From positions 1 through 22,557 of the IMG/VR virus record IMGVR_UViG_3300036851_000798: a stretch of DNA of 22,557 nt. The stretch is one strand, 5' to 3'. Below the pieces are notes generated by a model. The model did not search any database. It saw nothing but the letters and a program-made list of their open reading frames with translations, and was not told the DNA's origin. This document shows positions 7,418 through 22,557 of this stretch, piece by piece. Made by a program: the position numbers and the translations under genes. The stretch comes from a virus. The first letter of the stretch is position 1. The number at the start of each line of letters is the position of its first letter.

Positions 7418-8307
<890 letters not shown>

Positions 8308-8311
<4 letters not shown>

Positions 8312-8664
8312 TGGTCCTCCGTCGGCATGACCTTCTTGTTGCCGACGCCGTTGTGGATGCAGTTGACGACATCGGTCGGGGCGGCGACGTCGGCGTGCCA
8401 GTTGCCGCCGGCCGCGTTCAGGCGAATCCCCTTGCCGACCACGGCCGCGGTGCCGTCCGCCGCGCAGTAGACGATCGTGTCGCTGTCGTTCTGGAGGATC
8501 AGCACGCGGCGGTCGTTCTTGGCGGCGAGGACCTGCGTCGACGTCGTCGTGACGTCGACGGCGTCGTAGTGCTTGTGGCGGAGCGCGGCCGCCGCCGGCC
8601 CGGCCACGAGCGGGACGGCGAGGACGGCGGCGGCGATCGCGACGGCGACGAGGCGCAGGCTCAT
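8308..8664 (-). CDS. Small head-region protein with signal-peptide-like N-terminus
   Basis: This 118-residue protein starts at the ATG at 8664, four bases after the TAG of the cement gene. Residues 1-26 resemble a signal peptide: MSLR, hydrophobic core LVAVAIAAAVLAVPLVAG, then PAAAA. The mature part is a small beta domain with VTTTSTQVLAAKNDRRVLIL and QNDSDTIVYCAADG, then GIRLNAAGGNWHAD. I recall this pattern from small phage head proteins that usually lack a signal sequence. The role is probably capsid-associated. The presence of a Sec-type leader is discussed as a finding. Confidence 0.7.
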
Positions 8665-8668
8665 CGCC

Positions 8669-9628
8669 CTACTTCCGGGTGTACTCGATCCAGACCGCGT
8701 AGAGCTCGACCGTGTCCGTCCCGTGCGCGCCCGGCGTCAGGGTCACCGCGGCGACGGCCGGATAGGCGCCGATGTCGCCGGCGGCGATCGTGCGCGAGAC
8801 CTTGGCAAGCGTCGAGGAGAGCGCGCCCGTGGCGCCGCCGGCGTCGGTGTCGCCCGTCTTCTCGAAGTAGGCGACGGTGATCGTCGGCGTGTCCGTGGCG
8901 CCGCCCGACTTGGCCAGGCAGTTCACGACGACGGGCGCGGCGTCGTCGAGGTCCGGGGGATACGCGAAGCTGAAGGTGACGGCGTCCGTGTTGGCGGCGG
9001 CCCACTTCACGCGCAGGGCCTGGTCCGTGGCGCCGTTGACGCGCTCGAGGATCGGCGTGGAGTCCTTGCCGAGGATGCCGCCGGAGCCCTTCGCCGCCCC
9101 CGTCGCGACCGTGTCGATGTCGCTGGAGACGATCTCGCGCAAGCCCGCGAGCGGAATGTTGATGAAGCCGGTCGCGCTGTGCACCGCGATGTCCAGCGCC
9201 ATCTCCGTCGCCGAGAGCGCCCAGCCGAGGCGCTGCGCGTACGTGGCAGGTGCCGTCTGCGTGGTGCCGGCGGCCGTGGTGCTGAGGAAGACGGCGCCGC
9301 CCTTCGTCAGGGAGGAGAGCCCGCCGACGATGCCGCGGGTGACGATCTCGACCGGGTCTCCGGACGAGCCGCCCTTGCCGATCACGCCGATGGCGGGGCG
9401 GAGCGTGGCGTCGTCGGCGTCGGCCTTGTACGCCTTGCCGTCGGACTTCACCATGACGACGTCGCCCTCGGCGAGCGTCTCGCCGGCGGTCGAGCCGACA
9501 CGCGAGAAGATCTGCTGGACGCTGACGGCGGCCGCGGCCTCGCCGGGGATCCACGGCGCGGCGACGGCGAGCACGGCCAGGAGCACGAGGGCGGCGAGCG
9601 GCCGCCCGAAGAGTCGGCGATCGGACAT
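8669..9628 (-). CDS. Capsid cement (DUF2190-like) protein with C-terminal extension
   Basis: This 319-residue protein starts at the ATG at 9628 after a GGAGGG ribosome-binding site; a longer frame upstream exists but lacks support. Residues 1-34 resemble a signal peptide (RPLAALVLLAVLAVAAPW, then GEAAAA). Residues about 45-150 match capsid cement proteins: GETLAEGDVVMVKSDGKAYK, ATLRPAIGVIGKG, DPVEIVTRGIVGGLSSL, then QRLGWALSATEMALDI. Residues 151-319 form an extra domain beginning TGFINIPLAGLREI and ending YAVWIEYTRK, probably a beta-rich knob or fibre. It lies immediately after the capsid gene, as expected for a protein that binds between capsomers and stabilises the head. Confidence 0.8.
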   Translation of the reverse strand: MSDRRLFGRPLAALVLLAVLAVAAPWIPGEAAAAVSVQQIFSRVGSTAGETLAEGDVVMVKSDGKAYKADADDATLRPAIGVIGKGGSSGDPVEIVTRGIVGGLSSLTKGGAVFLSTTAAGTTQTAPATYAQRLGWALSATEMALDIAVHSATGFINIPLAGLREIVSSDIDTVATGAAKGSGGILGKDSTPILERVNGATDQALRVKWAAANTDAVTFSFAYPPDLDDAAPVVVNCLAKSGGATDTPTITVAYFEKTGDTDAGGATGALSSTLAKVSRTIAAGDIGAYPAVAAVTLTPGAHGTDTVELYAVWIEYTRK

Positions 9629-9819: not shown

Positions 9820-12201
9820 TTACGCCACCACCGACTTGACCGCGCCGCGGAAGTCGATGACGTCGCCGCCGTACTCATGGCGGATCTTGTACTGGAGCTT
9901 GTCGGCCTTGAACATCTCGCCCACCGTCGGCTGATCGGCCAGGAAGAGCTCGGGCTCCTCGCGGCCCTGGAGGAAGTCGATGACGATGGAGGCGAGATCC
10001 GCGGCGTCGCGGAACACGCCCCAGTCGGTGGCGTCGGAGAAGAGCGGGTTCACGATGATCCGCTCGTTCGCCTCGCCGAAGAAGTAGCGCACCGGGTTCG
10101 CCGTGAAGGCGGCGTCCAGGTACTCCTGCTCGTTGAGCTTCTTGGCCGTGTCCCAGAGGTCGATCGGGACGGCGAGCCAGAGGTTGGCGCGCAGGCCGCG
10201 GGCGAAGGAGAGCCCGAGCTTCTCGCTGGAGCCCGGCTCGGTCATCTTGGCGAGGTTGGTGACGGCCGTGGCCACGTTCGGCGCGGAGAGCGCCACCGCG
10301 AGGAGATTCGAGCCGTGGTCGGCGTGGAACCAGGCCGTGCCGTCGACGTCGTAGGCGTCGTTGTTGATCCACTTGTTCCAGACGTACTTCGCGAAGGTGC
10401 GGCGGGCGGAGCGGCCGAGGTATTGGACGAGGCGCTGCACGGTGCGGAGGTCGTCGTTGATGATGGTCTTGCGCGTGATCGTCAGCGTGTTGCCCTTCTG
10501 GATCACGCTGTAGGAGACCTTCTCGTCGCCGGGCGCGGCGATCTCGGGCCAGTCGATCGTCTCGGGGTTGACCTCCGAGAGGTCGCCGAAGTACTTGAGG
10601 CGCACCGCCTCCTTGGTCCGGAAGTCCTCGGCGCGGCCGACCGTGATGATGCGGCGCTCGCCGTAGTCCTGCTCGGCGTACGCCATGAGGAGCATCCGGT
10701 AGAGGGTGTTGCCGAGGATGTTGGGCCAGGTGTTCGACTGCACGGCCTCCTGGATCCGGGCGCGCTCGAGCACGCCGCGCACCTCGACGTCGCCGGTGAT
10801 CCGGGCGTACGCCTCGCGCAGGCTCGTGAAGTGCGGGCCGGCGCCGGCGTCCTTGTGGAGCTTGATCACGGGCGCGAGGGCCTCGCGGACGCGGACGGCG
10901 GTCTCCGCCGTGAACGCCTCGTGCACGCGCTCGAGCACGGGGGCGTCCAGGCCGAAGAGCCGGTCGAGGCCGACCTGGAGCTTGTCGGCCGCCTCGGGGC
11001 CGAGGTCGACGCGGGAACGGCCCACGCCCCGGGGCTCGCCGCTCTCCGGGAAAAGCTTCGCGAGCGTGGTCTTCTCCTCGGCGATCAGGCTGTCGAGCTC
11101 GGTCGCCTCGACCACGCGGGCGGCGAGCTGCTTGCCGAGCTTTTCCTGGATGGGGGCGGGCAGGCCGGAGGCGGTCAGGGCTTCCCGCACGCGCGCCTGG
11201 CTCTCGCGGAGCGCATCGCGCCGCTCGAGCTCGTCGAGCCGCTTCTTGATCGGATCCTCCGTGGGCGGCGCGGCCGCGGGCGGCGGCGCCAGGCCCTCGC
11301 GCACGAGCACCTCGAGCTCCGGGTCGGTCAGGGCCTCGGCCGTCCGGCCCTTGAGCAGATCCGGGCGGCCCTTGGCCAGCTCGATCAGCTGACTCCGCGT
11401 CATCACGTCCTCCTTGTGGGTGAAGAGCGACTGGGCTTCCGTCGCCCGGATGAAGCGCCCGTCTGCCGAGGGCGCGGTGACGATGTCGACCGAGAGCACA
11501 CGCTCCACCTTGCGGACCCACTTCGCGAGCCGGGGCTCCGTGGCGCTGCCCTCGCGCACCTGGACGGGGATCACGCCCGTGAACGTGTCGATGGAGAGCC
11601 CGAGCGCGTTCTGCAGGAGCCCGCGCTCGGCGAACTCGAGGAGCTTCTTGCGCAGGCCGCCGGCGCTCTCGTGGATGTGGGCCCGGCCATAGACGCCGTC
11701 CGGCTCGAGCCGGGGCTGGCTCAGATCGCCGACGATGTTGCGCACGACCGGACCGCCGGCGGTCCGGATCGCCTCCTCGCTGGCGTGGCCCATGAAGCCG
11801 TTGGCGTACTCGTAGCAGCCGATCGGCACGCGCCCCAGGTGGGGCAGCAGCGCCTCGCCGCTCTCGCGCGTCCAGAGCCAGCCGTGGCGGGAGACGCCGA
11901 AGCGCAGCACGCGGACGTCCCAGGTGGCGCCGGACCGGTCGAGGGCGCGCTCGAAGCCGACCGCTTCGGCCACCGATTCGTACTGGACCTCGACGAGCTC
12001 GGGCTCGGCGAGCGTGACGTCCTGCCCCTCCGTGATCGTGTAACCGATCTTCCAGAGCTTGCCGTCGCGCTGGATGACCGCCTCGGCGTCGAACGTCGCC
12101 ACCAGATACGGCCCGCTCTCCCACGACCCCTCGCGGCGCGGGAACTTCTGCTCGAGCGCCGCGCGCAGCTTCTGCTGTCGATCCTCGAAGCTCATCGCCA
12201 T
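9820..12201 (-). CDS. Prohead protease-scaffold-major capsid fusion protein
   Basis: This 793-residue protein begins MAMSFEDRQQKLRAALEQKF at the ATG at 12201 with GGGAGGG upstream. Three parts are visible. Residues 1-80 form an N-terminal domain with GKLWKIGYTITEG. Residues about 95-255 resemble phage prohead proteases: GRAHIHESAG with H175/H177 as candidate catalytic His, LGLSIDTF with S203 as candidate nucleophile, and RVLSVDIVTAPSADGRFIRA. Residues about 265-480 are charged and helical, like a scaffold. Residues about 485-793 resemble the Mu T-type HK97-fold capsid (NTWPNILGNTLYRMLLMAY, ARRTFAKYVWNKWINND, GTAWFHADHGSNLL). The protein must presumably be cut between parts during head maturation. 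Separate protease and capsid genes are more usual; fusions of this kind are known. Confidence 0.88.
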   Translation of the reverse strand: MAMSFEDRQQKLRAALEQKFPRREGSWESGPYLVATFDAEAVIQRDGKLWKIGYTITEGQDVTLAEPELVEVQYESVAEAVGFERALDRSGATWDVRVLRFGVSRHGWLWTRESGEALLPHLGRVPIGCYEYANGFMGHASEEAIRTAGGPVVRNIVGDLSQPRLEPDGVYGRAHIHESAGGLRKKLLEFAERGLLQNALGLSIDTFTGVIPVQVREGSATEPRLAKWVRKVERVLSVDIVTAPSADGRFIRATEAQSLFTHKEDVMTRSQLIELAKGRPDLLKGRTAEALTDPELEVLVREGLAPPPAAAPPTEDPIKKRLDELERRDALRESQARVREALTASGLPAPIQEKLGKQLAARVVEATELDSLIAEEKTTLAKLFPESGEPRGVGRSRVDLGPEAADKLQVGLDRLFGLDAPVLERVHEAFTAETAVRVREALAPVIKLHKDAGAGPHFTSLREAYARITGDVEVRGVLERARIQEAVQSNTWPNILGNTLYRMLLMAYAEQDYGERRIITVGRAEDFRTKEAVRLKYFGDLSEVNPETIDWPEIAAPGDEKVSYSVIQKGNTLTITRKTIINDDLRTVQRLVQYLGRSARRTFAKYVWNKWINNDAYDVDGTAWFHADHGSNLLAVALSAPNVATAVTNLAKMTEPGSSEKLGLSFARGLRANLWLAVPIDLWDTAKKLNEQEYLDAAFTANPVRYFFGEANERIIVNPLFSDATDWGVFRDAADLASIVIDFLQGREEPELFLADQPTVGEMFKADKLQYKIRHEYGGDVIDFRGAVKSVVA

Positions 12202-12492: not shown

Positions 12493-13350
12493 TTACGCGG
12501 GCCAGTCCGCCTTGTAGGGCAGGCTGTCGCACCCGCACTGCACGGTGTTAGCGGCCGAGCCGCGGGGATCCCGGGGATAGAGGAGCTGCTCGCGGGGCGC
12601 GCTCGGGCGCGGGGCGACCTCATAGAAGTCCTCGACCTCGCGCACCGTGCCGTCGTAGAGGCGGTGGGTGACGCGGCCGTTGATCGCGCCCGAGTGCTTC
12701 CACTGCTTCTGGAGATCCGGCACCAGGCGCTTCGAGGCCTCGAGCGTCGCCTGCCCGGCGACGGCCTGGACCCGCTTGATCTCGGTGCGCGTGATCGCCT
12801 CGGCGCGCGCCGCGATCGACGCGAAGGCGCCGGGCCCCTCGAGCGAGCCGGCGACCGCGCGCATGATCTCGAAGGGGCTCTTCCCCTCGATCGCGCCGAG
12901 CCGGATCGCCTGGGTGATCTTCCGGCGGGCGTCGTCCGTGAGGCCCTGGATCAGGTCGGCCTGGAAGTCGACGGTCGCCTCCACGAGGCGGCGCGGGATC
13001 TCCGGCACGCCGAAGGTGAGCCCGGAGTGCACGAGCGGCTCGGCGACGAGCGAGCGGCCGAGCGCCGCGGCGTCGGCCTGATACGGGGCGAGCGCGACCT
13101 GGTAGCGCTCGCTGAACTCGTCCATCACGCCGGCGAGGCGCTCGGTGAGCTGGCGGAGACGATAGGCGTCGAGCCCCTCGGCGTGCGTGGCGAGCTCGGC
13201 GAGCACGCGGCGGCGGATCCCCTCGAGCTCCTCGAGCGCGGCGCGCACGGCCGCGTCCGGCAGCTGGTCGATGCGGGCGCGGATCGCCTCGATCCGGGCG
13301 ACGAACCGGTCCTGGGGCGTCGAGGCCAGCGCCACGCGCACGCCGATCAT
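12493..13350 (-). CDS. MuF-type head morphogenesis (minor head) protein
   Basis: This 285-residue protein starts at the ATG at 13350, which shares one base with the portal stop (TGATG). The N-terminal two thirds are helical. The C-terminal part has the MuF/SPP1 gp7 signature: AEAITRTEIKRVQAVAGQAT, then RVTHRLYDGTVREVEDFYEV, YPRDPRGSAANTVQCGCDSL. Proteins of this family bind the portal inside the procapsid and are ejected or needed for head assembly. It follows the portal gene, as Mu gp30 does, which supports the call. The paired cysteines at CGC match the conserved NC.C of the family. Confidence 0.9.
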   Translation of the reverse strand: MIGVRVALASTPQDRFVARIEAIRARIDQLPDAAVRAALEELEGIRRRVLAELATHAEGLDAYRLRQLTERLAGVMDEFSERYQVALAPYQADAAALGRSLVAEPLVHSGLTFGVPEIPRRLVEATVDFQADLIQGLTDDARRKITQAIRLGAIEGKSPFEIMRAVAGSLEGPGAFASIAARAEAITRTEIKRVQAVAGQATLEASKRLVPDLQKQWKHSGAINGRVTHRLYDGTVREVEDFYEVAPRPSAPREQLLYPRDPRGSAANTVQCGCDSLPYKADWPA

Positions 13351-14870
13351 CACGGGCGGTCCCCCAGGCGATCGCGGAGATCGCGCACCTTCGCGGGATC
13401 GCGCTCGTAGTCCCGGCGCTCGGCCGGCGTGGGCTCCCCCTCCGGCGTGACTTCCTCGTCGGCCTTGACCTCGCTGCCGAGCTGCGAGGCCAGGAGCGCG
13501 AAGAGCCGGGCGGAGGTCTCGCGGCGGATCCAGCCCCGCTCCTCGGCCTGGCCGAGCGCGACGGTCAGCTGCGTCATTGCCGTGGTAATCGCCGAGGTGT
13601 CGCGCATCGAGATCTCGGGCAGCTCGACCGTCAGGGTCTCGTCGGCGTCCTTCGGCAGGACGCCGTGGACCTTCGCCTGGTGGACGGCGAAGCGACAGAG
13701 GAAGAGGATCACGTGCCGGACGGTCTTCTGCCGGCGGCTCATCCGCTTCATCGTCGGCAGCCCCATCTCCTTGGCGGTGGCGAGGTTCACCTCGCCGCCG
13801 AGCCCGTAGTAGTGCTCGGGGATCGAGCGCGCGCCGAGGATGTGCCCGCGCAGCAGGCGCGCGAGCGCGTCGAGCTCGTAGGACTGGAGGGTCGGGCCCT
13901 CGGCCTTCCACTCCACGCCCTCGTTGTGGGCGCGGATCGCGCCGCGCCGGACCGTGGCGTTGTCCTTGAGCCACGCCTTGATCTGCGCCTCGTCCATGCC
14001 CTTGAGCGTGACGTCCCAGATGAACGCCCCGAGGAGCTGGGCGCGGTCCATGCCGTCGAAGAGGAAGGCGTCGTAGCCGTCGAGCCAGTCGATCAGCGAC
14101 AGGAGATCCGAGCGCCCGCGGCGCGCCGCGGAGCGCTGGTTCACCTGGAACAGACAGCACGAGCCGTCGTACGGGCGATCGAAGCGGTGCAGATCGCGCT
14201 CGCCCCAGAGGGCCGGCATCAGCTGGCCGAAGGTCGCGCTCGAGCGGACGTCGTCGGCGCGGACGACCTTGTAGAGGCGCGGGCGCTCGCCGGTCGCCCG
14301 GCTCTTGAGGGCGACCGTCTCGGCGATCAGCGCGTTCTCCGGGTGCGTCACGACCTCGGCGATCTCGCTGGGCTCGAGGTAGCCCAGCCGCACGTGCCCG
14401 TCGAAGTCGTTGACGAAGACGGGCAGCGCGAGCTCGCCGTCGAGCCCGAGTTCGCGCACGAAGCTGTCCATGCGGAGATCGAGCTGGTTCACCGGGTCGT
14501 CCCAGAAGGCGTCGACGATCGCCTGCACGCGCGCGTCGTCCGCCTTCACGCGCCCGCCTTCGCCCCAGACGAAATCGACCACGGTCTCGGCGAGCCACTG
14601 GGCGAGCGGGTTCGACTCCCACAGCCAGTGCACCATCGCGAGCATCCGGTCCTGGGCGAGCGGCGTGAGATCGCGCTCGCTCTGCTCGCTCGTGAGCCGG
14701 CGGAAGCCCTGCTGCATCAGCAGCTCGTCGGCGCGGCTCATCCCCGCCGACAGCGCCTCGCGCACCCGGGTGTCGGCCTCGGCGCGCAGGCGCGTCTCCG
14801 TCTCGGTGAGGCGCCGGCCGATCAGGTCGCCGGCCAGGTACTCCATCAGGCGCTCCCGGATGGTCCTCAT
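13350..14870 (-). CDS. Portal protein (Mu gp29-like position)
   Basis: This 506-residue protein starts at the ATG at 14870 (MRTIRERLMEYLAGDLIGRR) behind GGGAGC; a longer frame upstream crosses repeats and is less likely. Features typical of portals are seen: WESNPLAQWLAETVVDFVWGEG, VRELGLDGELALPVFVN, RRGRSDLLSLIDWLDGYDAF, ILGARSIPEHYYGLGGEVNLA and TAKEMGLPTMKRM. The 12-subunit portal forms the DNA channel and terminase docking site. It sits between terL and MuF, as in Mu-type genomes. The C-terminus is acidic then basic (EEVTPEGEPTPAERRDYERD), which is common in the family's interior tail. Confidence 0.9.
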   Translation of the reverse strand: MRTIRERLMEYLAGDLIGRRLTETETRLRAEADTRVREALSAGMSRADELLMQQGFRRLTSEQSERDLTPLAQDRMLAMVHWLWESNPLAQWLAETVVDFVWGEGGRVKADDARVQAIVDAFWDDPVNQLDLRMDSFVRELGLDGELALPVFVNDFDGHVRLGYLEPSEIAEVVTHPENALIAETVALKSRATGERPRLYKVVRADDVRSSATFGQLMPALWGERDLHRFDRPYDGSCCLFQVNQRSAARRGRSDLLSLIDWLDGYDAFLFDGMDRAQLLGAFIWDVTLKGMDEAQIKAWLKDNATVRRGAIRAHNEGVEWKAEGPTLQSYELDALARLLRGHILGARSIPEHYYGLGGEVNLATAKEMGLPTMKRMSRRQKTVRHVILFLCRFAVHQAKVHGVLPKDADETLTVELPEISMRDTSAITTAMTQLTVALGQAEERGWIRRETSARLFALLASQLGSEVKADEEVTPEGEPTPAERRDYERDPAKVRDLRDRLGDRP

Positions 14871-15048: not shown

Positions 15049-16539
15049 TCACCCGCGAACCCCCCAGAACCGGACCCTGCCCCGGGTGAAGCCCCCGCCC
15101 GGCGCCGCCGCTTCCTCCGGCTCGCCCACGTCGACGGCCGCGATGCCGGTGGAGAGCGCCTGGAGGGCGAGCCCGAGTGCCCAGGCGTGGTCGGCGTGGC
15201 CGGTCGCCTCCGTGCGGTCGGCGTCGAAGCGGAAATTCCCGGTCGCCGTCTGCAGGCGCTTGAGCGAGTGCAGGCTCTCGCGGATCGTGCGGTCGACGGG
15301 AATCGCGACGCTCCCATCCTCGAAGGCGCGCTTGAGGCCGCCGGCGAGGATCGCCTTGTTGTCGACGGTGAAGTCGATGCCCTCGACGCGGACCTCGCCG
15401 AAGCGTTCGACGGCGCGCTCGGCGAGCTGCATGCCGAGCCCCGAGCGGTCGATGCACGCCCGGCGCACCGGCGCGCGCGCGAGCAGCGTCCACACCACGC
15501 GCTCCTGGACGCCGAAGGGCTGGCGCGCGAGCGCGATCGCGGCGGCCGTCGTGCGGGCGAGCGGCTCGTCGGCCAGGAGCCACACGACGCTGAGATCACG
15601 CCGGCGGCCGACGTCGAAGCCGAGCCCGAGCGGGACGGCGAACTCCGGCAGCGCCACGTCGGTGAGCGGCTGGACGTTCGTGGGATCCGCCCGGTGGGCG
15701 GCCTGGGCGGCGGCGACGAGCTCGACGGCCCACGCAGGCTCCGCCTCGAGCTTCAGATCCTCGACCGCGGCGATCAGCTCGTAGGACAGCCAGGCCGTCG
15801 CCTCGTCCAGGAACTCGACCAGGTACTCCTGCGCCCACGCCTCGGCATCGCCGAGCGCCAGGCGCAGGGCCTCCGGGGTCGTGAGCTGGCCGTCCTCGTC
15901 GCGCAGATCGAGCCCGTCGGCGATCGCGTCGTGGATGGTGACGACGTGCTGGGAGTAGGCCGGGTTGGTGGCGAGCTCGTAGAACTTGTTCTTCTTGCCC
16001 TGGGGCGTCGAGAGCACGCGGAGCTTGTAGCCCCGGGTGATCGTCGGGAAGAGCGCGGCCCAGATGCCGCGGCTGTCCTTGTGGAAGGCGAACTCGTCGA
16101 GCACCACGTTCGCCGACCAGCCGCGGGCGGTGTCGGGGTTCGCGGGCAGCCCGATGCACCACGCGCCGTTCGCCAGGCGGATCTCGTGGGTCTTGAACTT
16201 GGTGCCCGCGAACTCGTCCTCGCCCTCGATCACCTCGGCGGCGCGCTGGATCGATCGCAGATGCGTGGCGACGGTGTCGACGTTCTTCTTGGACTGGCGC
16301 TCGCCGGCGGAGAGCACGACCCAGGGATCGTTCGCGTGCTCGGCCATCTCGAGCGCCGGCTCGAGCATCCCGACGAAGCTCTTGCCGGTCTGCCGCGCCA
16401 TCCGGGCGATCTTGAAGCGCGCCCGGTCCTCGACGTAGCGCTTCTGGTAGCCGGTGAGCTGGACGACGGCCTCAGCCACGGGCGCGCTCGGGATCGCGCC
16501 GAGGGCCAGCAGGATGAGGAGCGCGAGCGCGCGTCTCAT
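15049..16539 (-). CDS. terL: Terminase large subunit (Mu gp28-like)
   Basis: This 496-residue protein packages DNA into the prohead with ATP and cuts it with a C-terminal nuclease. The start is the ATG at 16539, overlapping the terS stop as ATGA. Visible motifs: Walker A-like ARQTGKS at about residues 48-54, Walker B VVLDE at 145-149, coupling motif LSTPQGKKN at 176-184, and nuclease acidic site GFDVGRRRDLS at about 307-317 with a second acidic region near CIDRSGLG (residue 371). The family length is normal. The N-terminus is odd: residues 1-24 (RRALALLILLALGAIPSAP, then VAEA) look like a signal peptide before the usual GYQKR start of the ATPase. A GTG at codon 21 is an alternative start but has no ribosome-binding site. 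Confidence 0.92.
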   Translation of the reverse strand: MRRALALLILLALGAIPSAPVAEAVVQLTGYQKRYVEDRARFKIARMARQTGKSFVGMLEPALEMAEHANDPWVVLSAGERQSKKNVDTVATHLRSIQRAAEVIEGEDEFAGTKFKTHEIRLANGAWCIGLPANPDTARGWSANVVLDEFAFHKDSRGIWAALFPTITRGYKLRVLSTPQGKKNKFYELATNPAYSQHVVTIHDAIADGLDLRDEDGQLTTPEALRLALGDAEAWAQEYLVEFLDEATAWLSYELIAAVEDLKLEAEPAWAVELVAAAQAAHRADPTNVQPLTDVALPEFAVPLGLGFDVGRRRDLSVVWLLADEPLARTTAAAIALARQPFGVQERVVWTLLARAPVRRACIDRSGLGMQLAERAVERFGEVRVEGIDFTVDNKAILAGGLKRAFEDGSVAIPVDRTIRESLHSLKRLQTATGNFRFDADRTEATGHADHAWALGLALQALSTGIAAVDVGEPEEAAAPGGGFTRGRVRFWGVRG

Positions 16540-17105
16540 GCGGCCGACGGCTTCCGCGGCGCGAGGCCGTAGATCTCGGTGCGGATCGTCTCGATCGTCG
16601 CCTCATCGAGCCCCTTCTTCTTGAGCGTCCGCTCGGCCTTGCCGGCGACGCTGGCGACCTTGCGCTCGAGCTCCCGCTCGCGCAGCGCGAGCTTCTGCTC
16701 CTCGAGGCGCAGCTTCCGTTCGCCGAGATCGAGCCAGCCGAGCTCGTTGGGGTCGGGTGTGCGGTCCTCGGTCATGGCCGTGAGCCGCTGCGCCATCAGG
16801 AGCTGCCGGATCACCTGCTCGATCTCGGGGGTCTCCTTGCCCTTGAAGGCCCGCAGGAGCTCGTCGACCTTGTCGGAGGCCTCGAGCACCGGCCGCTCGG
16901 TCGCCGCCCACCACTCGCGGTAGCGGTTGAGCGAGGCCACGGGGATCCGCTCGCCGAAGTCCTTCCCGATCGCGGCGACGATGCCCGTCGTGGACTCGTT
17001 CTGACGAAAGCCCGCGAGCGCCCGCTGACGGGCGCCGTCGGAGAGACGGTAGAAGGCCCGGTAGTGCGGCCGGTGCTTCCAGGCGTCGCCTTTCCGGCGG
17101 CTCAT
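16536..17105 (-). CDS. terS: Terminase small subunit, DUF3486 (Mu gp27-like)
   Basis: This 189-residue protein begins MSRRKGDAWKHRPHYRAFYR, starting at the ATG at 17105 with ATGA overlaps at both ends. It matches the DUF3486 layout: an N-terminal DNA-binding helical domain (ARQRALAGFRQNESTTGIVA, then IPVASLNRYREWW) followed by a long coiled coil (LGERKLRLEEQKLALREREL) for oligomerisation. Such proteins recognise the packaging start and load the large subunit. Its position directly before terL, as in Mu (gp27 before gp28), supports the call. Length fits the family. Confidence 0.9.
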   Translation of the reverse strand: MSRRKGDAWKHRPHYRAFYRLSDGARQRALAGFRQNESTTGIVAAIGKDFGERIPVASLNRYREWWAATERPVLEASDKVDELLRAFKGKETPEIEQVIRQLLMAQRLTAMTEDRTPDPNELGWLDLGERKLRLEEQKLALRERELERKVASVAGKAERTLKKKGLDEATIETIRTEIYGLAPRKPSAA

Positions 17106-17449: not shown

Positions 17450-17864
17450 CGGTCAGGCTCCTGCTGAGCGCGAGCACGTCGGCGTGCACCCCACGCAGCT
17501 CCTCCCGGGTTTCGACCGTCTCGCGACGGAGCGCCTCTTGCCCGATCAGGACCTCCTGGATGTCCTCGTGCTTGGCCATGCCCTCCTGGCTGCGCGCGAT
17601 GCTCGTCAAGGCGCTCGCCGTGCGCTCGGTCGCCCGCACGAAGGTCGACAGATGCGCGACCAGCACCAGGAAGATCAGCAGGCCCGGGCCCCACTGAATC
17701 AGCAGCAGCTTCAGATCGGCGCCGAGGCCGCCGAAGATCGCGGCGGCGAGGAAGGCGGCGAGGCCGCCCCAGGGCAGGAAGTCCTTCGCGAGTGCGCGCG
17801 CCTGCTCCACGCGGCTCGTGGCCGGCGTCTCGCGCTCAAGGTCCGCGACCGCCGAGGCGCTCAC
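17433..17864 (-). CDS. Two-TM holin-like membrane protein with coiled-coil tail
   Basis: I place the start at the GTG at 17864, forming a GTGA overlap with the upstream gene, rather than codons farther upstream. The product is about 143 residues. Two membrane segments are visible at about residues 31-48 (WGGLAAFLAAAIFGGLGA) and 58-76 (WGPGLLIFLVLVAHLSTFV), followed by a long coiled coil (RETVETREELRGVHADVLAL). It follows the endolysin group and precedes Mu gp26-like and terminase genes. In Mu-like phages this slot holds DUF2730 proteins (one membrane segment plus coiled coil) or holins. Holin or DUF2730-like spanin-type role are alternatives. Confidence 0.65.
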   Translation of the reverse strand: MSASAVADLERETPATSRVEQARALAKDFLPWGGLAAFLAAAIFGGLGADLKLLLIQWGPGLLIFLVLVAHLSTFVRATERTASALTSIARSQEGMAKHEDIQEVLIGQEALRRETVETREELRGVHADVLALSRSLTDGRRG

Positions 17865-18139
17865 CGGCGCGTCTCGCCGGCGCACCAGGCGAAGGCCTCG
17901 AGCGCGTCCGGCCGGTCGGGATGCGTGCGGAGCGCGAGCGTGATCGGGCAGTCGGGACCGCCGGCGCGGACGAGCGCGGCGGCGACCGCCTGGCGGAGCG
18001 TGGCCATGTCGTCCACGGCGTGCGCCGGCACGGCGAGCGTGATCCGCTCGATCGGCTCACGCACCGCCAGGTCCTGCGCCGAGGCGACGCCCCCCCCGGT
18101 GGCCGCGACGACGAGGGCGAGCACGAGGCGCCGCCTCAC
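17861..18139 (-). CDS. Small exported protein, unknown function
   Basis: This 92-residue protein starts at the GTG at 18139, forming GTGA with the previous stop. Residues 1-21 look like a signal peptide: MRRRLVLALVVAATGGGVAS, then A followed by QD. The mature part has two cysteines (GPDCPITL and AWCAGETRR). It contains an eight-G run within codons for the TGGGV segment. It lies among lysis-type genes. A periplasmic lysis helper is a possibility, but it shows no Rz-like coiled coil or lipobox, so the function is unknown. Confidence 0.65.
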   Translation of the reverse strand: MRRRLVLALVVAATGGGVASAQDLAVREPIERITLAVPAHAVDDMATLRQAVAAALVRAGGPDCPITLALRTHPDRPDALEAFAWCAGETRR

Positions 18140-20110: not shown

Positions 20111-20589
20111 GCCGACTCTCCGGACGAGGGCCGCCAGCCGCCCTGGACGCGCGCCTCGAGGGCCTTCAGCGCCTCGATCGCCTTCTCGGCTTCGTGCGAG
20201 GTCCGCGGGAACGGGTACCCGCACGCGCGCAGCCGGACGCCCTCGAGGTAATTCGAGCTGAGCCCGGCGGCGAGGAGCGCGCGCGTGAGCTCGGCCAGGC
20301 GCTCCCGCTGGGCCGGCGTGATCAGCATCGCGACGTCGCCGGTCGCGACCGCCCCGCGGGCGCGCCCGCGCATCCGCGGCTGCGGTCGCGTGGGCGTCTG
20401 GCCGGCGAGCAGCTTCAGGGCGTCGATGATGAGATCGGCCTCGGGGTTGCTGAGGTCGCGGAAGCTCACCGCCCCCGGGAAGTACTGCTGGAGGAGGCGC
20501 TCCTTGTCGATCGGCTGCAGCTTGAGGACGCCGAAGGCGAGGGTGTTCAAGCAGCGGAGCCGCCCGGGGCTGAGCGCGACCTGCTTCAC
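20107..20589 (-). CDS. Tandem GemA/gp16-like helical domain protein
   Basis: I start it at the GTG at 20589 (GTGA with the HD gene stop), giving 160 residues. It seems to hold two related halves. The first is LSPGRLRCLNTLAFGVLKLQ through SFRDLSNPEADLIIDALKLL. The second is ITPAQRERLAELTRALLAAG through RTSHEAEKAIEALKALEA. Both end in a helix with EA..(L/A)I(D/E)ALK.L, the Mu gp16/GemA-type pattern. The linker between them is basic (RMRGRARG). This suggests an internal duplication. Possible role: early regulatory or DNA-associated protein as for GemA; not proven. Confidence 0.55.
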   Translation of the reverse strand: MKQVALSPGRLRCLNTLAFGVLKLQPIDKERLLQQYFPGAVSFRDLSNPEADLIIDALKLLAGQTPTRPQPRMRGRARGAVATGDVAMLITPAQRERLAELTRALLAAGLSSNYLEGVRLRACGYPFPRTSHEAEKAIEALKALEARVQGGWRPSSGESA

Positions 20590-21143
20590 CGGGCGAGCTC
20601 CTGGAAGCGGTCGAGGAAGGCGTGCTCGGCTTCGTCCGGGGTCCAGGGCTTGATCTGGCCGGCGATCGGCTCGACGTCGATCGCCCAGCGGCCGTGCGCC
20701 ATGTTCATGAGGTCCCGGGCTTCGGTGGCAAGGACCACCTCGTCGGCCCACTTCACGCCCGAGGGAATGACGTCCGGGATCCCGAAGCGTTCGGCGATCG
20801 CGCGATGCACGCGGCCCTCGACCAGGCGGTAGACCAGGAAGCTCGGCGCCCGCTTGATCGGGCGCGGCAGGTCGATGATGTACGCCTCCGCCGCGTCGTG
20901 CAGCAGCCCCACGAGCGCGTCGCCCGGCGCGCAGAGGTGGCTGACGAGCACGCTGTGCTGGGCCACGGAGTAGAAGCGCGTGCAGTGGCCGGCGAACCCG
21001 CAGAGCAACGAGAGCGCGTGGGCGATGTCCTCGATCACGACGTCCTCGGCGGCCGGATCGAGCGGCCAGAACTGCCGGCCGGTGAAGGTCGTCATCCAGT
21101 CCCCACGCCGGGCGGGGGCTTCGAGGAGACGGCGGGCCTTCAT
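20586..21143 (-). CDS. HD-domain phosphohydrolase
   Basis: This 185-residue protein carries metal-binding residues of the HD superfamily: QHS (H63), LHD (H82-D83), ID (D91) and WAD (D134). The N-terminal portion contains MTTFTGRQFWPLDP, then EDIAHALSLLCGFAGHCTRF, a typical opening for phage and bacterial YfbR-like 5'-nucleotidase/phosphohydrolase relatives. Such enzymes act on nucleoside monophosphates, so a nucleotide-pool role during replication is likely. Start at the ATG at 21143 (ATGA overlap) adds 16 residues before MTTF; the internal ATG at 21095 matches the usual family start and cannot be excluded. Confidence 0.85.
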   Translation of the reverse strand: MKARRLLEAPARRGDWMTTFTGRQFWPLDPAAEDVVIEDIAHALSLLCGFAGHCTRFYSVAQHSVLVSHLCAPGDALVGLLHDAAEAYIIDLPRPIKRAPSFLVYRLVEGRVHRAIAERFGIPDVIPSGVKWADEVVLATEARDLMNMAHGRWAIDVEPIAGQIKPWTPDEAEHAFLDRFQELAR

Positions 21144-21700: not shown

Positions 21701-22557
21701 GTCTGTCGCTCCGGGCGGTATCGCGAGGCCGGCAGATCGAAGGTCCAGGCGACGGCCTCGCGCGCCGTGCGCACCGAGGGCGGCACGCGAAGGAAGTACT
21801 TCTTCACCGAGCCGTCGGGCTCGGGCGTGCTGTTCGTGACGTGGACGAGCACGAGCGGCTCATCCCCCTCGAGCTCGATCCGGTAGAGCGCCCCGTAGTC
21901 GTCGGCCTGGAGCGGGCGGGCGCCGGTCTCGAGGATGAACCGGTCGTGGCCGAGCCGCTCGATCATCACGCGGCGGACCTCGGCGTTGCGCTCCTCGAGC
22001 ACGAGCTGGCCGTGGAGCGAGTCCGGCGCCGCGATGACGAACTCCGGCACCTGGACGCCGCGCCAGAAGTAGTAGCAGCGGCCGTCGGGCCAGGCGACCG
22101 CCGGACCGTCCGCGCAGTGCAGGCGGTCGTCGAGGATGCGGAGCGCGGGACGCGCCACGGCGATCACCTCGTCGCGCGTCACCCAGAAGAGCCACAGCCC
22201 GGCCTCGCTCGCCTCGACGAACGGCAGCCAGATGCCGATCCACTTCTCCAGAGCGGCGGCTGCGTCCCTTGCCGCCGCTGAATTTTTCTTGAGAGACGTT
22301 CCGGCGGCGCTCCGGGCGGCGCTCTCGGCGGCGCTCCGGGCGGCGCTCCGGGCGGCGCTCCGGGCGGCGCTCTCGGCGGCGCTCCGGGCGGCGCTCCAGG
22401 CGGCGCTCCGGGCGGCGCTCCAGGCGGCGCTCCGGGCGGCGCTCTCGGCGGCGCTCCGGGCGGCGCTCCAGGCGGCGCTCCGGGCGGCGCTCCAGGCGGC
22501 GCTCTCGGCGGCGCTCTCGGCGGCGCTCCGGGCGGCGCTCCAGGCGGCGCTCTCGGC
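21697..22557 (-). CDS. DUF6745 protein with [R/E/W]SAA repeat (5' end beyond window)
   Basis: A frame without stops runs from the right window edge to TGA at 21697, giving 286 visible residues. The N-terminal visible part is 21 copies of X-S-A-A (X is R, E or W). After a linker ([20 protein letters not shown]) comes [19 protein letters not shown] and then the DUF6745 signature: [73 protein letters not shown] and [20 protein letters not shown]. The family has no established function. A GTG at 22182 is only an internal codon: coding continues upstream with conserved residues. The true start lies outside the window. Ala-rich middle segments occur in relatives, but this regular repeat is striking. 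Confidence 0.85.
22303..22557 (-). repeat. 12-bp tandem repeat encoding XSAA, 21 copies
   Basis: The plus strand is GGCGGCGCT followed by CCG, CTC or CCA, repeated 21 times without a gap and then cut by the window end. The nine-base core is identical in every copy; only the last three bases vary. On the minus strand the copies read [CGG/GAG/TGG]-AGC-GCC-GCC, coding R/E/W-S-A-A in frame with the DUF6745 protein. The last three bases, from 22303 rightwards, give R E R R R E R W R W R E R W R W E E R W E. The array continues beyond the window, so its length is unknown. Confidence 0.95.

Follow-up and report, generated by a model that had tools for sequence, protein, structure and literature searches.

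Signal-peptide-like leaders on the large terminase and other head proteins of Mu-like phages suggest that heads are built or filled at the cell membrane

Viral proteins with an N-terminal targeting sequence include pVIII, the coat protein of filamentous phages, which is made with a signal peptide, and the SAR endolysins, phage enzymes with an N-terminal Sec-type anchor. The likeness of pVIII to the system described below is that of a coat protein with a signal peptide, whereas its fold is different, its phages leave by non-lytic extrusion and no tailed head is formed. SAR endolysins differ in acting in the periplasm and in serving lysis instead of packaging. As an enzyme, the large terminase (TerL) described below is like that of Mu/B3-like transposable phages: both share the Terminase_6N and Terminase_6C domains, a gp27 gene upstream, a portal gene downstream, the presumed catalytic residues and the T4 gp17 fold, and Pseudomonas phage B3 is among the named relatives. 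In contrast to Mu/B3-like TerL, the enzymes described here possess a signal-peptide-like leader, in many relatives followed by a further linker of 30-40 residues before the ATPase.

Head assembly at a membrane has precedents in T4 (PMC9958956) and in 201phi2-1 (PMC7950403), as far as the available parts of the two accounts go. T4 proheads begin on the inner membrane with the gp20 portal, gp40 and YidC; the portal and a helper protein attach to the membrane, and the prohead leaves it before the packaging motor binds (PMC9958956), which counts against the idea of packaging at the membrane. Tailed-phage head assembly at the inner membrane is likewise proposed here, whereas in T4 it is the portal that is membrane-attached, and here TerL, capsid and cement proteins carry leaders and the portal-position genes do not. 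In 201phi2-1, empty capsids form on the cell membrane, as proposed here, whereas packaging occurs at the phage nucleus (PMC7950403). The available parts of these accounts mention no leader on TerL or on a capsid protein. Among the listed matches from the open-access literature, with subscription journals mostly outside, titles and abstract openings revealed no signal peptide on a large terminase or a tailed-phage capsid protein.

The stretch analysed here (the window) is a 22,557-base IMG/VR virus record from a Mu-like phage, with all 31 called genes on the minus strand. In the order of transcription, small lysis-like genes (by eye) are followed by a Mu gp27-like gene, TerL, the portal, a head morphogenesis protein, a protease-capsid fusion gene, three leader-bearing genes and tail-like genes (by eye). 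The features concerned are as follows.

15049..16539, minus strand: large terminase (TerL), 496 residues, with a signal-peptide-like N-terminal leader (Terminase_6N 8.4e-16, Terminase_6C 3e-10, Foldseek)
16468..16539, minus strand: TerL leader, residues 1-24, MRRALALLILLALGAIPSAPVAEA (read from the sequence)
16492..16527, minus strand: hydrophobic core of the TerL leader, residues 5-16, LALLILLALGAI, mean Kyte-Doolittle hydropathy 3.07
16468..16476, minus strand: AEA, last residues of the TerL leader and possible site of the signal-peptidase type
16477..16479, minus strand: in-frame GTG, TerL codon 21, rival start
16536..17105, minus strand: Mu gp27-like gene, its stop overlapping the TerL ATG (Phage_Mu_Gp27 2.3e-8)
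13350..14870, minus strand: portal protein, without leader (phrog_10963 2.7e-41)
12493..13350, minus strand: head morphogenesis protein, without leader (phrog_2468 2.3e-23; Phage_Mu_F below cut-off)
9820..12201, minus strand: head protease and major capsid protein in a single 793-residue reading frame, without leader (Phage_capsid_4 2.1e-32)
8669..9628, minus strand: capsid-cement-like protein with a signal-peptide-like leader (family comparison, structure model)
8308..8664, minus strand: 118-residue protein with a signal-peptide-like leader, without family match
7418..8308, minus strand: 296-residue protein with a signal-peptide-like leader, without family match

Three further features lie upstream of the gp27-like gene. 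The region read by eye as lysis genes contains a small protein at 17861-18139 (minus strand; VRRRLVLALVVAATGGGVASAQD...) with a signal-peptide-like start and a GTGA overlap with the preceding gene; a PHROGs search with a shorter frame gave no match. The 185-residue protein at 20586-21143 (minus strand) presumably resembles HD-type hydrolases, judged by eye. At the right edge of the record (22310-22557) a short GC-rich unit is repeated (by eye GCCGCCCGGAGC and variants), and these repeats encode an Ala-Ala-Arg/Trp/Glu-Ser pattern.

The TerL of the window is an ordinary T4/Mu-type ATPase-nuclease which the leader adjoins directly. Its ATPase domain scores 58.7 bits against Terminase_6N (curated cut-off 22) and its RNase H-like nuclease domain 40.7 bits against Terminase_6C (curated cut-off 22.6). 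G52, K53, D148, E149, D309, D364 and D450 are invariant in 22 aligned sequences; we take them to be the Walker A, Walker B and nuclease acidic residues. The AlphaFold2 model (mean pLDDT 85) has T4 gp17 as its best Foldseek match (4e-19). In this model residues 3-12 form a low-confidence helix and order in the ATPase sets in at about residue 30, so the leader is an addition and lies outside the TerL fold. Set against the criteria for a Sec type I signal peptide, it has an n-region charge of +2, an uncharged core of 3.07 and the site AEA.

In a chance control, 133,439 stop-free stretches of 24 codons were drawn at random with the base composition of the window, and none contained a 12-residue uncharged core with a mean hydropathy of at least 3.0; across the six frames of the window 41 of 34,460 overlapping 24-residue segments reach this value, the leader genes among them. 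Judged by the genes of the window itself, the leader has a coding log-odds of +5.5 in its own frame, with a GC3 of 0.91; the remaining forward frames give -17 and -18, and one antisense frame over it scores +3.8. The initial annotation had placed the start at the ATG at 16539 on the minus strand, giving 24 leader residues, and had drawn support from an ATGA overlap. Both points were confirmed, the ATG (16537-16539) sharing bases with the TGA (16536-16538) of the gp27-like gene. It had also described the later GTG as having no ribosome-binding site; a good site is indeed missing there (GAG, spacing 7), but the ATG has none either (GGA, spacing 13). The choice of the ATG consequently relies on the stop-start overlap and on the relatives.

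A first scan of viral contigs yielded 199 relatives, and among the best 80, which were kept, 16 possess a hydrophobic TerL leader. Four further viral scans and one scan of bacterial genomes brought the collection to 250 TerL loci, in which individual contigs recur many times. A leader was read at 59 loci (23 distinct N-termini) and its absence at 136 (87 distinct); the other 55 fell outside the start rule, being truncated or lacking a recognised gp27 or YQ motif. Three further leader-bearing TerLs are L022, L286 and L352, the first two belonging to the 55 and read by eye. The extension, for which the initial annotation had recommended a check of homologues, is thus found in homologues too. Leaders range from the 24 residues of the window to a signal-peptide-like part followed by a linker of 30-40 residues, as in L008 (MAWRHNFLHIFLPALAFFFLLGTIRPDAILAAAK...PLIKLTDYQKRW). 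A hydrophobic core and an [AVT]xA site are present in all 25 distinct leader N-termini, against a mean of 17.3 and a maximum of 24 for the site after the core in 5000 shuffles; the stricter AxA follows the core in 21 of 25 (shuffle mean 11.6, maximum 19), kinship being ignored in both comparisons. The n-region is basic (+1 or more) in 21 of the 25 leaders and of zero charge in four.

Among distinct TerLs, 18 of the 23 with a leader and 47 of the 87 without one start at an ATG within TATGG, which encodes Tyr-Gly near the end of the gp27 frame; where such enzymes have a leader, it lies behind this fixed start and ahead of the conserved LTxYQ motif. Six of the 23 leader TerLs (L008, L010, L013, L083, L231 and L278) have no ATG, GTG or TTG between the core and the YQ motif; barring a rare start codon, these enzymes can only start with the leader, and an internal start as a general answer is ruled out for them. 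Homologues starting at VVQLTGYQ, which had been named as evidence against the extension, were not clearly found: leaderless homologues use starts of their own close to where gp27 ends, with 4-45 residues separating them from the YQ motif, although some lie near the VVQL column (L018: MPAIHLTHYQ). By alignment positions alone, the 30 best listed of 1664 named-phage matches to the L008 TerL align from query residue 22 or later, and 29 of the 30 from residue 34 or later.

Hosts of leader TerLs, provided that the bins are reliable, are Nitrospiraceae SURF_45 (L082), Nitrospirae X2 (L083) and Geobacteraceae E14 (L087), which account for three of the nine loci of the bacterial-genome scan. The search of 295 genomes in the phylum of the L082 genome gave 20 with any terminase match, and a leader was read in 3. 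Of 345 genomes in the phylum of the L087 genome, 29 had a match of any kind, and a leader was read in the known genome alone. The other matches in bacterial genomes that were read for leaders were G039, G040, G216 and G380 (present) and G209 (absent). In four leader-TerL contigs, L411 (G216), G016, G040 and G047, the co-directed genes end a few kb after TerL and opposite-strand genes come next; some of these contigs have extra genes between the portal and the next head gene, and a search of the available stretches brought up no capsid gene.

Over leader residues 7-34, pN/pS is below 1 in 16 of 17 pairs of relatives (0.19-0.74; the exception 1.13), the pairs not being independent; the enzyme part of the same pairs gives 0.07-0.23. 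By this codon measure the TerL leader is under purifying selection. A quick tree of 116 TerL cores, 26 of them with a leader, and with a program warning on some long branches, needs six changes, at least four on well-supported branches, compared to about 24 when the leader labels are shuffled. It contains an 18-row clade with a leader in every row (SH-aLRT 100), a second leader clade of L257, L271 and L278 (SH-aLRT 100) and single leader rows L019 and L022, while the window groups with L002, L005 and the leaderless L003 (SH-aLRT 99). In a group of Mu-like phages, the comparison shows that the leader is made as protein and that selection maintains it. A chance hydrophobic frame in a GC-rich genome is ruled out by the pN/pS values, the motif counts and the random-stretch control; leaders in contigs of 47-68% GC also argue against it.

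The major capsid protein itself carries a leader in eight distinct phages, belonging to two capsid families: the Phage_cap_E type in G008, G009, G015, G014, G024 and G042, and the Mu gpT type in L087 and G041. Pfam assigns six of the eight (cap_E 5.9e-42, 9e-52, 4.9e-54 and 4.4e-54; gpT 2e-119 and 9e-94), the G015 capsid was assigned by PHROGs (major head protein, 5e-25), and the assignment of G009 rests on 87% identity to G008. The best Pfam match begins 46-57 residues into the leader-bearing proteins, and the 15 best listed of 28 named-phage records with related capsids align only from query residue 41-57 onward. A capsid leader is present in 8 of 17 contigs with a TerL leader versus 0 of 44 without (61 distinct contigs; Fisher 8e-6, kinship ignored). 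These 61 were obtained from 89 contigs or stretches by removing 20 without a capsid hit and eight duplicates. Ten of the 20 have a TerL leader (G005, G012, G013, G016, G018, G020, L083, G040, G047 and G216) and ten have none, and several of the 20 end within 8 kb of TerL. The remaining 9 of the 17 leader-TerL phages have a capsid gene in reach without a leader, two of them protease fusions. This fusion type, the one found in the window at 9820-12201, occurs in 19 of the 61 distinct contigs with a capsid hit. All eight capsid-leader phages make up one TerL subclade of eight rows, in which both capsid families carry the leader, so the association does not stand for many independent events.

The leaders of the two capsid families are themselves alike. 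That of L087 (gpT) scores higher with that of G008 (cap_E) than all but one of 195 other leader-like N-termini, the single exception possibly being the G015 capsid leader, which was left in the comparison set; weaker cross-family pairs rank down to 43 of 195 (G041 with G014). In both families an LPLLxxG-like junction closes the leader immediately ahead of the native start, and the G014 (L097) capsid leader has no AxA. Similar leaders on two capsid families (L313, L314, L097, L100, L096, L087) look as if the leader had stayed while the capsid gene was swapped.

A third kind of leader-bearing head protein is represented in the window by 8669-9628; every one of the 13 family members identified among called genes (12 distinct, that of the window included) bears a leader. 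Its domain model matches PDB 8saj of phage Adjutor (1.3e-4; chain role not stated) and an HFTV1 portal-capsid entry (7e-4), with weaker matches to T1, TW1 and Sf11 capsid entries; with two PDB matches below E 0.001, the domain behind the leader is predicted to be of the cement type. The AlphaFold2 model has a pLDDT of 87-96 per ten residues over positions 41-140; the rest of it is poor and, beyond residue 150, unreliable. Against curated cement families there was no Pfam match, and PHROGs returned families of unknown function only (2.7e-5), hence the name cement-like. In the L002 phage, a 288-residue protein combines a leader-like N-terminus with a domain of the cement type (phrog_1731 1.9e-32; Pfam cement score below cut-off). 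The 13 of 13 leaders speak for a leader that this family would need. Disulfide formation as the reason for export was rejected, since the 13 members have 0-5 cysteines, and 10 of them 0-2.

The other 11 distinct members of the family belong to phages with a leaderless TerL, so in 11 of 12 distinct cases the cement-type leader does not track that of TerL, which speaks against a cause shared by these two, as judged from co-occurrence. A pattern on three other structural genes had been described, apparently 8669-9628, 8308-8664 and 7418-8308; all three do have leaders, but only 8669-9628 could be tied to the head, the other two giving no match in Pfam or PHROGs. The shared cause suggested for them gains from the leaders on other head proteins, including the major capsid proteins of relatives, and loses from the cement-type leader in 11 phages with a leaderless TerL; across the head genes it is plausible. 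Inspected by eye, the genes of a single genome showed no leader sequence in common. Leader-like N-termini are absent from 70 portal-position and 64 gp27-position genes; of the 826 genes that follow TerL, 71 have one, a count which takes in the capsid and cement genes. In G002/G003 (L116-L119) TerL is leaderless, yet genes +5, +6, +8 and +9, after a fused capsid gene, have leaders; one of the four is FN3-like by eye.

Several lineages therefore have leaders that are conserved in character and under constraint, and such leaders occur on three kinds of head protein, all of which are expected to be cytoplasmic or capsid-bound. From their Sec-type features on these three kinds, and their absence from the portal and gp27 positions, we infer membrane targeting. 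Our tentative proposal, to which we give somewhat less than even chances, is that the leader is a Sec-type membrane-targeting sequence anchoring TerL, and in relatives the capsid protein, at the inner membrane for head assembly or packaging. Added to an otherwise ordinary packaging ATPase-nuclease, it would bring nascent TerL (in relatives, the major capsid protein too) to the inner membrane and would stay as an uncleaved or slowly cleaved anchor; head assembly and packaging would thereby be concentrated there, with cement proteins bearing the same kind of leader. A wider version appears rather doubtful: a Mu-like branch would use portable Sec-type leaders on TerL, on major capsid proteins of any family and on cement proteins; the polycistronic late mRNA would likewise be recruited to the membrane through the leader of its first head gene, making the inner membrane the place where heads are both made and filled. 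The main difficulty for anchoring is topology. The N side is more positive in 20 of 21 long leaders scored, which favours N-in/C-out and hence export rather than a cytoplasmic anchor, and this bias together with the [AVT]xA site, suggestive of cleavage in all 25 leaders, is what cleavable signal peptides would have. Charges are equal on both sides of the leader in L002 and L005, and in the window the N side has +3, compared with a C side of 0 if the following 15 residues are counted and of +4 if 30 are. Either fast folding may halt translocation, or the leader may anchor despite its charges, or a pool may be exported.

The last of these leads to an explanation we consider unlikely, in which the leader would be a genuine signal peptide that is cut off, with some of the TerL, capsid and cement protein ending up in the periplasm, where it could act, for instance, as a nuclease on incoming DNA or, in the case of cement, bind to heads once the cell has lysed. 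The signal-peptide-type n-, h- and c-regions and the charge bias would fit, as would the leader throughout the cement-like family, whose fold matches include capsid entries and whose members presumably sit on the capsid surface. Against this, export would remove the sole packaging enzyme from the six phages whose TerL has no usual start after the core, an exported ATPase would be without ATP, and the portal-position genes have no leader. The leader might instead be a hydrophobic head-assembly peptide without contact to Sec, comparable to a short scaffold or delta domain and either removed by the head protease or kept. The LPLLxxG-like junction before the native start in two capsid families and the G014 capsid leader without AxA are in its favour; TerL is not located inside the prohead, however, and such a peptide would not require the [AVT]xA site or the basic start of the TerL leaders, which makes this origin quite improbable. 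That the leaders are functionless N-terminal extensions, gained by recombination and tolerated, would agree with sequences differing widely between clades and with the close relatives L003 and L004 that have none, but is very hard to reconcile with the pN/pS values, with a core and site in every leader and with an 18-row clade free of leaderless members.

The case is weakest for the clade of the window. In L002 and L005, the leader-bearing relatives nearest to the window, the column of the window GTG is likewise occupied by a start codon (GTG and ATG), so TerL in this clade might begin at codon 21, with the upstream hydrophobic frame hardly or not at all translated. The weak ribosome-binding site at the window ATG would fit such a start, as would the strong differences between the three leader sequences and the leaderless L003 and L004, close relatives which start at an ATG inside gp27. 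The GTG of the window, though, has no good site either; a start-stop overlap is found in all three phages, with a fair ribosome-binding site at the leader start in L002 and L005; the leader codons are coding-like; and the three stretches, with little common sequence, are all hydrophobic. Leaders are also needed in sister clades. On balance a start at the GTG is improbable, and the leader of the window TerL is very probably made.

Terminases and HK97-fold capsid proteins are regarded as plain cytoplasmic proteins. Annotation that trims N-termini, or labels every gene with a signal peptide as secreted, would misread the genes described here. The leader on TerL has been gained or lost several times, and may offer a handle on the membrane association of heads, which is hard to test otherwise because the evidence is usually indirect. 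Leaders on the packaging motor, and in part of the group on the main shell protein, suggest that the heads of these phages are built or filled at the cell membrane; if true, some tailed phages would organise head assembly via the membrane-targeting route of their host.
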